A program made the position numbers and the translations under genes. This document shows positions 1 through 18,845 of a DNA stretch of 32,754 bases, piece after piece (within the stretch, counting starts at the first letter, position 1; every line of letters starts with the position of its first letter). This DNA comes from Candidatus Thorarchaeota archaeon (GTDB lineage Archaea > Asgardarchaeota > Thorarchaeia > Thorarchaeales > Thorarchaeaceae), in contig QMYR01000005.1 of assembly GCA_003662765.1 (NCBI GenBank), positions 1-32,754 of the forward strand, written 5' to 3'. The notes below the pieces were generated by a model that searched no databases, was not told the origin of the DNA, and saw only the letters and a list, made by a program, of their open reading frames with translations.

Positions 1-1118
<1,118 letters not shown>

Positions 1119-13379: not shown

Positions 13380-13490
13380 GCCGAGGTAGCCAAGTGGTCA
13401 ACGGCGGTGGACTCAAGATCCAGGACCACTCTCAGATGAGATATCCACTCTCGTAGGAGTTCACGAGTTCGAATCTCGTCCTCGGCACCA
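13380..13490 (+). tRNA. tRNA-Leu(CAA) with a 25-nt intron (13418-13442), CCA encoded
   Basis: Acceptor GCCGAGG/CCTCGGC + ACCA; anticodon stem GTGGA/TCCAC, loop CTCAAG|A; long variable arm CTCGTAGGAG; T arm ACGAG-TTCGAAT-CTCGT. The anticodon stem closes only if 13418-13442 is removed. Confidence 0.93.
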
Positions 13491-16784: not shown

Positions 16785-18032
16785 TCACTCAAAGAGATCC
16801 TTTGCAATACGGCTTAGGCGCGGCTCACTGTCAAGAACCTCTCCAATCTGCTTCCTACTTACGGCCAGCCTTATCTTCTTCGTACGACCATATCGCCCCT
16901 TCGAGATGACGGTAGTGTTGATAAGCCCCAACATGTCCAGCTCGGAGATCAGGTCAGAAACCCTGCGCTGTGTCAGAGTGTCCAGAGACAATGCTCGTGC
17001 AACCTCTGTGTAGACATTGAAACACTCACCTGTAAAGATGTCACGCTTGCCCTTCTTGGTGAGTGCATAGACTGCAAAGAGGACCGCCTTTGACTGCATT
17101 GGAAGTGTCTTGATGGCCTCAGAAACACTGTCACGCTCCAAGATCTTCTGTGCTTCTCGTACATGTTCCTGTGTGACCTTATCGTCACCTCGACGTTCTG
17201 CGAGCTCCCCAGCAGTCCTCAAAAGATCAAGGGCTCGACGTGCATCACCATGCTCCTGAGCCGCAAGGGCACCAACGAGGTTTATCACACCCTCATCAGC
17301 GATCACCCCATCGTTGAATGCTAGGGACACTCGTTGCTCAAGAATCCCTTTCAGCTCCACGGCGTTATAGGGTGGAAACACGACCTCTTCCTCACCAAGG
17401 CTGCTGAGTACGCGTGGGTCCAGCATCTCCTTGAACTTGAGGTCGTTGCTGATTCCAATGATGGAAATCCTGCTGTTCTTCAATTCCCCGTTCATCCGTG
17501 TGAGGCCGTACAGGATATCGTTGCCTTGGGTGACATCACGCTTGAGCAGACTGTCCACCTCATCGAGAACCACAACGAGAATGTTCGCCTCCTCGTCAAG
17601 CTTGTTCTTGAGAACACTGCGAATCTCGTCAGTGGGAAGACCAGTGAATGGCACCTCAGAACCATCGGGCATCCGTGCACCTATCTGCTCGCATAGGCTT
17701 CTCAGCACTCGGTAGTTAGTACCTACAATGCGGCAATTCACAAAGGCGCTCAAGGGGGGCCGGACGCTGCTGTCGGTCGCCTTGTCAATCAGTGCCTTGA
17801 GGACGTATTTCGCAACGACCGTCTTTCCTGTCCCAGTCTTCCCGTAGCAGAGGATATTCGATGGCGGGGCACCACGAAGCGCGGGCCCGAGAATGGATGC
17901 GATTCTGCTCATCTGTTCGTCACGGTACGGTAGCTTGTCAGGCACAAAGGTCGGTCTCAACGCGTTTCGGTTGCGGAAGATTGACTGGCCCTGCAGGAAC
18001 TTGTCGAAGAGTTTGTCAAGCGGTTTCTCCAA
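16785..18032 (-). CDS. cdc6: Orc1/Cdc6 replication initiator AAA+ protein
   Basis: Walker A CYGKTGTGKT, Walker B LVVVLDEVDSLL, C-terminal winged helix (TEVARALSLDTLTQRRVSDLISELDMLGLI). The track start is 18158; a TTG at 18032 is proposed because the upstream extension is low-complexity and coincides with ORB-like repeats. Confidence 0.93.
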   Translation of the reverse strand: MEKPLDKLFDKFLQGQSIFRNRNALRPTFVPDKLPYRDEQMSRIASILGPALRGAPPSNILCYGKTGTGKTVVAKYVLKALIDKATDSSVRPPLSAFVNCRIVGTNYRVLRSLCEQIGARMPDGSEVPFTGLPTDEIRSVLKNKLDEEANILVVVLDEVDSLLKRDVTQGNDILYGLTRMNGELKNSRISIIGISNDLKFKEMLDPRVLSSLGEEEVVFPPYNAVELKGILEQRVSLAFNDGVIADEGVINLVGALAAQEHGDARRALDLLRTAGELAERRGDDKVTQEHVREAQKILERDSVSEAIKTLPMQSKAVLFAVYALTKKGKRDIFTGECFNVYTEVARALSLDTLTQRRVSDLISELDMLGLINTTVISKGRYGRTKKIRLAVSRKQIGEVLDSEPRLSRIAKDLFE

Positions 18033-18218
18033 CTCAGCTTCACATCTCCACTGGAAGTCGTCGTTGTTTCCTCTGTATCCACTGGAGCCTGTGGAACCTG
18101 TGGAGATAAAGGCACGTATTACCAAGCAGTCTAGCTGACCAACAGGTGTTATCATCAAAAGTCATATCAACAATACGAGTGGCCACACGCGCCGTGACAT
18201 GGGAGAGGACACACCGCC
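18033..18218. promoter_or_regulatory. candidate replication origin region with ORB-like repeats
   Basis: TCTCCACTGGAAG (18045-18057; reverse complement CTTCCAGTGGAGA), TCCACTGGAG (18078-18087), CCTGTGGA x2 (18088-18095, 18097-18104), directly upstream of cdc6. Confidence 0.55.
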
Positions 18219-18845
18219 ATGAAACTCCGAGATTTGGAGATTGCACTCGAAACGATAGAGAGAAGGTCTGAGAGAGAGGTCACACTGGAGGACTATCCCA
18301 CGCCTGCGACCATTGCAGCAGCGATAATCTACGCCGCGCAGATGGAGCACGGGGACATCATTGACAAGGTCGTGTGCGATCTCGGATGCGGGGACGGAGT
18401 CTTTGCCATTGGTGCAGCCCTGATGGGTGCGCGTCGTGTTATTGGGGTCGATATACAATCCAAAGCCTTAAAGGTCTGCCAACGGAACTCGAAACTGCTC
18501 GGGACAGATGGCACGACAGACTGGGTCCTAGGGGAGGTTCCTTCTCTGGAGTTTAGAGAAACCATAGACACTGTGGTGAGCAATCCTCCCTTTGGGGTCA
18601 AGAAACGCGGAGCCGACCTAGTCTTCCTGAGGAAGGCACTGTCCATAGCCAGAGTGACGTACAGTATCCATCTGGCAGGTGAAAAGAACAGACAATTCCT
18701 GACGAGGAACGTCGAGAAACTCGGAGGAATCGTGACCCAGGTTGAAACGTTCGAGTTCCCGATTCGACGGCTGTTCGAGTTCCATAGAAAAGAGAAACAC
18801 ATGACAAAAGTGAATCTGTATCGAATCGAGATGAAAGAGAGGTGA
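18219..18845 (+). CDS. METTL5-like RNA/DNA adenine methylase
   Basis: 208 aa; DLGCGDGVFAIGAALMGARRVIGVDI, NPPFGVKKRGADLVFLRKAL and YSIHLAGEKN fit the METTL5 family. Confidence 0.88.
   Translation: MKLRDLEIALETIERRSEREVTLEDYPTPATIAAAIIYAAQMEHGDIIDKVVCDLGCGDGVFAIGAALMGARRVIGVDIQSKALKVCQRNSKLLGTDGTTDWVLGEVPSLEFRETIDTVVSNPPFGVKKRGADLVFLRKALSIARVTYSIHLAGEKNRQFLTRNVEKLGGIVTQVETFEFPIRRLFEFHRKEKHMTKVNLYRIEMKER

Follow-up and report, generated by a model that had tools for sequence, protein, structure and literature searches.

Does the row of short repeats in front of the initiator gene orc1/cdc6-1 of Thorarchaeia mark a chromosomal replication origin, does it serve as an operator of the initiator gene itself, or does it do both? 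The window, i.e. the whole analysed stretch of 32,754 nucleotides, belongs to contig C5 of a MAG of Thorarchaeota (2.32 Mb in 205 contigs, 87% complete). An earlier note had described ORB-like repeats upstream of cdc6 as a candidate chromosomal origin, and the repeats themselves are found exactly as quoted there: GGTTCCACAGGCTCCAGTGGATACAGAGGAAACAACGACGACTTCCAGTGGAGATG occupies 18043-18098 of the minus strand, in front of an orc1/cdc6 gene of the initiator type, and includes two copies of the core TCCAGTGGA; the variant CCTGTGGA is present twice with a spacing of 9 bp on the plus strand, which corresponds to CTCCACAGG followed by TTCCACAGG when read on the cdc6 strand. We suggest, with a probability of roughly 0.6, that the region represents a mini-ORB array (core YTCCANTGGAR together with half-sites) in the promoter and leader of thorarchaeal orc1/cdc6-1, which would be bound by Cdc6-1, would repress its own promoter and would perhaps also nucleate oriC. 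The features of the locus, listed in the direction of cdc6-1 transcription, are the following:

18219-18845, plus strand: small divergent methyltransferase gene, the conserved neighbour across the array
18106-18123, minus strand: conserved promoter element GGTAATACGTG-CCTTTAT, with a TATA-like CTTTAT and GTAATAC before it
18097-18105, minus strand: half-site repeat 1, CTCCACAGG (YTCCA-YTCCA with 9-bp spacing)
18088-18096, minus strand: half-site repeat 2, TTCCACAGG (YTCCA-YTCCA with 9-bp spacing)
18077-18087, minus strand: mini-ORB dyad A, CTCCAGTGGAT, equivalent of the central dyads in relatives
18067-18077 (limits approximate), minus strand: degenerate middle box, CAGAGGAAAC, aligned with the second central dyad of relatives
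18046-18056, minus strand: mini-ORB dyad B, TTCCAGTGGAG, the start-proximal box TTCnnnTGGAR, whose TGGA is invariant or nearly so in the alignment
16785-18032, minus strand: coding region of orc1/cdc6-1 (NF001625 equivalog plus Cdc6_C) with the proposed start codon TTG at 18030-18032 (TTGGAGAAACCGCTTGAC)

This TTG is the likely start of cdc6-1 since most aligned relatives begin with NTG-GAR at the same place and several of them have in-frame stops further upstream. A longer cdc6 frame (16785-18158, minus strand) reads through the array, and a coding explanation for the region was ruled out by in-frame stops within the array in relatives. On the cdc6 strand the order toward the gene is GGTAATACGTGCCTTTAT (the promoter element), the two half-site repeats, dyad A, the degenerate box, dyad B and the start, with 31 bp or about three helical turns between the two dyads.

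Taken in one window alone this array is weak evidence, being only modestly improbable. No other cluster of the window scores as high, yet 5 of 200 random sequences with first-order (dinucleotide) composition of the window equalled or passed this score, and by chance a window should contain 0.2 exact dyads. A search of the window's genome for the tandem pattern YTCCANNRGYTCCANNGGA with zero mismatches gave a single hit, namely this site; single dyads are not enriched genome-wide (8 sites versus 10 for the reversed control). It is conservation in the relatives, as judged from sequence comparison, that puts the array far beyond chance. In the family comparison 36 distinct regions upstream of cdc6-1 share its anatomy, and a model built on sequence only (R1) yields one strong match per genome, with E values of 2e-4 or better, in 36 of the 37 family genomes; the motifs are conserved in front of the orthologous genes, as an origin next to cdc6 had been expected to show. 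Every strong match in these 36 genomes lies directly upstream of cdc6-1 and none at another gene, and the sole failure (G017) concerns an assembly that contains the paralogue only and lacks cdc6-1. Thirty of the upstream sequences had been used for training of the model and their recovery is expected; the informative part is the uniqueness of the match together with the recovery of members left out of training, e.g., G018, G033, G027, G009 and G019. Where long flanks were available (19 loci), 16 exact dyads (YTCCANTGGAR) were counted; each falls within the 100 bp that precede cdc6, and none was found elsewhere in the approximately 7 kb around the gene. Secondary box clusters in two sampled chromosomes look like chance.

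The geometry of the array is regular as well. Distances from dyad to dyad are 11, 18-22 or 31-34 bp, though the number of dyads varies among genera, and therefore most dyads lie on one face of the helix. Over distinct spacing patterns the phasing amounts to R = 0.79 at a period of 10.5 bp, with periods of 10-12 fitting about equally well and with an optimistic p-value, since the statistic treats the patterns as independent despite their shared ancestry. The 9-bp arrangement of YTCCA-YTCCA half-sites was counted in 30 cases among the 36 distinct loci.

With respect to the gene, the array follows the conserved promoter element GTAATACGTnnCTTTAT and precedes the start codon, and its boxes begin just after the TATA-like element. 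Positions T3, A4, T6, A7 and C8 of the promoter element are invariant in 30 aligned sequences, and its strict pattern GTAWTACSTNNCYTTAT was matched in 10 of the 35 genomes searched, each time once and always at cdc6-1. The array overlaps the promoter and leader of cdc6-1 as these follow from a putative TATA box and a predicted transcription start. Directly before CTTTAT stands GTAATAC(G), which is conserved separately from the array and is replaced by its reverse complement GTATTAC in two relatives; it may represent a palindromic factor site. The spacing from TAATA to CTTTAT appears, by eye, identical in Lokiarchaeia.

A quite different way to read repeats in a leader is control at the level of RNA, in which CUCCA repeats would pair with a UGGAG close to the start codon. 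The context of the start codon is often (A/T/G)TGGA(G/A) and complementary to the YTCCA boxes, but the consensus fold reaches only -0.59 kcal/mol with four pairs and zero double-sided compensatory changes, and the strongest dyads have a centre of one base, which makes hairpins impossible. This explanation was rejected for want of covariation and we regard it as highly improbable. As no RNA structure is supported, the array most likely acts at the DNA level.

Which protein would bind there? The nearest solved structures to Cdc6-1 are 2v1u and 2qby_A, the latter being Sulfolobus Orc1-1; both are archaeal Orc1 proteins crystallised in the presence of origin DNA. The winged helix of Cdc6-1 retains QRRVS-x2-ISELDM and GRYG, whereas the paralogue encoded by cdc6-2 has SHTQVW and GRRG instead. 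It is known that the arginines contacting the ORB distinguish initiators from non-initiators (PMC9738581). Together with the retained residues this criterion makes the product of the adjoining gene, which has a winged helix of the initiator type, the likely binder, and direct binding of the array by Cdc6-1 is in our opinion very probable. At the paralogue cdc6-2 no ORB array was seen by eye in 20 loci.

Upstream of cdc6-2 we observed another element of about 73 nt (L010:1292-1363 (+), G000:C6; also L087-L106) with the layout GGCGAGTGATGA..ATGACCCCNATGAGTC-loop-GACGATGATATGGATCTTGAGT..GAGCTCGCC and a tRNA gene nearby in several loci. It is conserved in 19 of 19 family loci, with a version in family f4 that has another closing stem (GGGCGTTCA..TGAACGCCC), gives zero Rfam matches and looks like an unannotated small RNA of a C/D-box-like type.

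The full consensus of the archaeal ORB is CTTCCAGTGGAAACGAAAGGGGT, in which a G-string (AAAGGGG) on one side gives polarity (PMC4153887). Thorarchaeal boxes contain the dyad core TTCCAGTGGAA(A) or a close variant of it and, like archaeal ORBs, adjoin an orc1/cdc6-1 gene with a winged helix of the origin type. Unlike those, the boxes of the array are packed at distances of 11 or about 21 bp and with half-site repeats at 9 bp, and every one of them is found downstream of the promoter and ahead of the start codon. In 80 aligned dyads there is no conserved G run on either flank, and the best matches to the full consensus reach 57-86%. An assignment as full ORB with G-string was rejected on this ground; because the G-string is absent, the boxes are called mini-ORB-like.

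Lack of the G-string and packing at 9-11 bp, both unlike textbook ORBs, could also mean that the boxes merely resemble ORBs and serve another transcription factor, such as a cell-cycle regulator, as its operator, and the additional conserved GTAATAC element does suggest further factors at the cdc6-1 promoter. We consider this improbable: the dyad is identical with the ORB core (PMC4153887), the array adjoins the gene of the cognate initiator and no other gene, and a similar box is present at cdc6 in distant Asgard families. In Lokiarchaeia one such box (YTCnnnTGGAR) occurs in 19 of 28 cdc6-1 loci compared with 3.8% of random background segments, 53-94 bp before the homologous residue and downstream of the TATA box, and by eye several further cdc6-1 loci carry the same box with one change. 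Among other Asgard loci it was detected in 7 of 19 (background 4.6%), with three of the seven coming from one family and two from another.

Binding by Cdc6-1 leads back to the choice between operator and origin. According to the proposed mechanism Cdc6-1 would occupy several boxes side by side on one helix face, and, as the row of boxes extends from just behind the TATA-like element in the direction of the start codon, this occupancy would block initiation of transcription and hold the initiator level down, in a manner resembling DnaA at dnaA. For nucleation of the chromosomal origin (oriC1) the same Cdc6-DNA complex is the one candidate that was found; it may have this role, which is less certain than autoregulation. 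Judged from the sequence, a location downstream of the promoter and ahead of the start codon is no less compatible with an autoregulatory operator than with an origin; we rate autoregulation of cdc6-1 by the array as rather probable and origin activity as having even chances, and the two are compatible and can both be true.

The array could also be chiefly oriC1, with Orc1/Cdc6-1 binding the boxes, melting nearby DNA and loading MCM, while the location in a promoter would be incidental. We give this reading somewhat less than an even chance. Archaeal oriC1 is usually found beside orc1/cdc6-1 (PMC4010727, PMC2643942), and here several boxes of the ORB type, the one such cluster that these genomes yielded, lie beside such a gene, whose product has the winged helix of an origin-binding initiator. 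Furthermore, cdc6-1 and cdc6-2 lie at no great distance from one another, which in many genera amounts to about 40 kb according to genome coordinates, with the 16S rRNA and PCNA-PriS-Gins genes close by. Against it stands, besides the missing G-string, the result that no AT-rich unwinding element was found (intergenic AT content 0.495 versus a window mean of 0.469, and no consistent AT peak in relatives) and that within 6 kb upstream no inverted second set of ORBs or other conserved site cluster was found in 19 loci. Hence the proposal of a candidate origin stands only in part: conserved ORB-type dyads beside an initiator-type Orc1/Cdc6 gene are present, but G-string, AT-rich unwinding element and inverted flanking ORBs were not found. 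No mapped or predicted origin of Asgard archaea or Thorarchaeota was identified in the part of the literature that was searched.

By convention origins are sought at the minimum of the cumulative GC skew. In one sampled, N-gapped pseudo-chromosome (CP070761) cdc6 lies near the maximum, not the minimum (p ~0.05), and in the other (CP070658) there is no skew signal at cdc6. Both “chromosome” records (G022 and G024, respectively) contain many short N runs, whose lengths are often multiples of 100. They behave like scaffolds with gaps, which makes analyses depending on order unsafe on both. Within the window the skew flips at the divergence of cdc6 and the methyltransferase gene, but this flip goes with gene orientation and has several counterparts at other places of the window.

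On the divergent side of the array the genes for the small methyltransferase, Csl4, RpoL, TFS, PCNA, PriS and a Gins51 protein were recognised. PCNA, PriS and GINS had been named as flanking genes before, correctly; the PCNA-PriS-Gins cluster is well known and common among archaea (PMC2643942) and by itself is no origin marker. The window further contains a 16S rRNA gene (1-1116, minus strand), which is cut by the contig end and lies about 17 kb from cdc6, and a 108-nt tRNA at 13380-13487 that gave an Rfam match, was missed by ARAGORN and probably contains an intron.

Known systems resemble the array in different respects. The oriC of Thermococcales (in T. kodakarensis one ORB and several mini-ORBs, PMC5663688) also has short ORB-like repeats upstream of cdc6; those of T. 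kodakarensis lie outside the promoter, because they can be deleted with promoters and transcription starts kept (PMC5663688), whereas thorarchaeal boxes overlap promoter and leader. In oriC1 of Sulfolobus (ORB2-DUE-ORB3, PMC12141716) a gene for an Orc1-1-type initiator likewise stands beside the ORBs, but this origin depends on inverted ORBs at both sides of an AT-rich element (PMC12141716), an arrangement not seen at the thorarchaeal array, and also has a ucm. Mutated ORBs beside orc1-1 left the Orc1-1 level of Saccharolobus islandicus unchanged (PMC12141716); therefore, ORB-mediated autoregulation is not general. Initiator sites inside the initiator's own promoter are known from the DnaA boxes of dnaA (PMC8203912, PMC3936714), which we propose as the analogue in mechanism, although initiator protein and domain of life are different and autoregulation is shown for dnaA, while for cdc6-1 it is only inferred. 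Saccharolobus Orc1-2 (PMC9738581) exemplifies an Orc1/Cdc6 protein that binds its own promoter and works there as a transcription factor, as proposed here, but it is a non-initiator paralogue that recognises ANTTTC and drives the DNA-damage response (PMC9738581).

More speculatively, and in our estimation unlikely, Asgard archaea could have fused origin and initiator promoter into one phased mini-ORB array that has neither a G-string nor a separate AT-rich unwinding element, and on which a row of Cdc6-1 along one helix face would silence its own gene and mark the only origin. In any case the array is a concrete, family-wide origin candidate in the Asgard archaea, the group closest to eukaryotes, and its boxes are directly testable. 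If autoregulation proves true, it would show a way in which Asgard archaea may keep their initiator in check.
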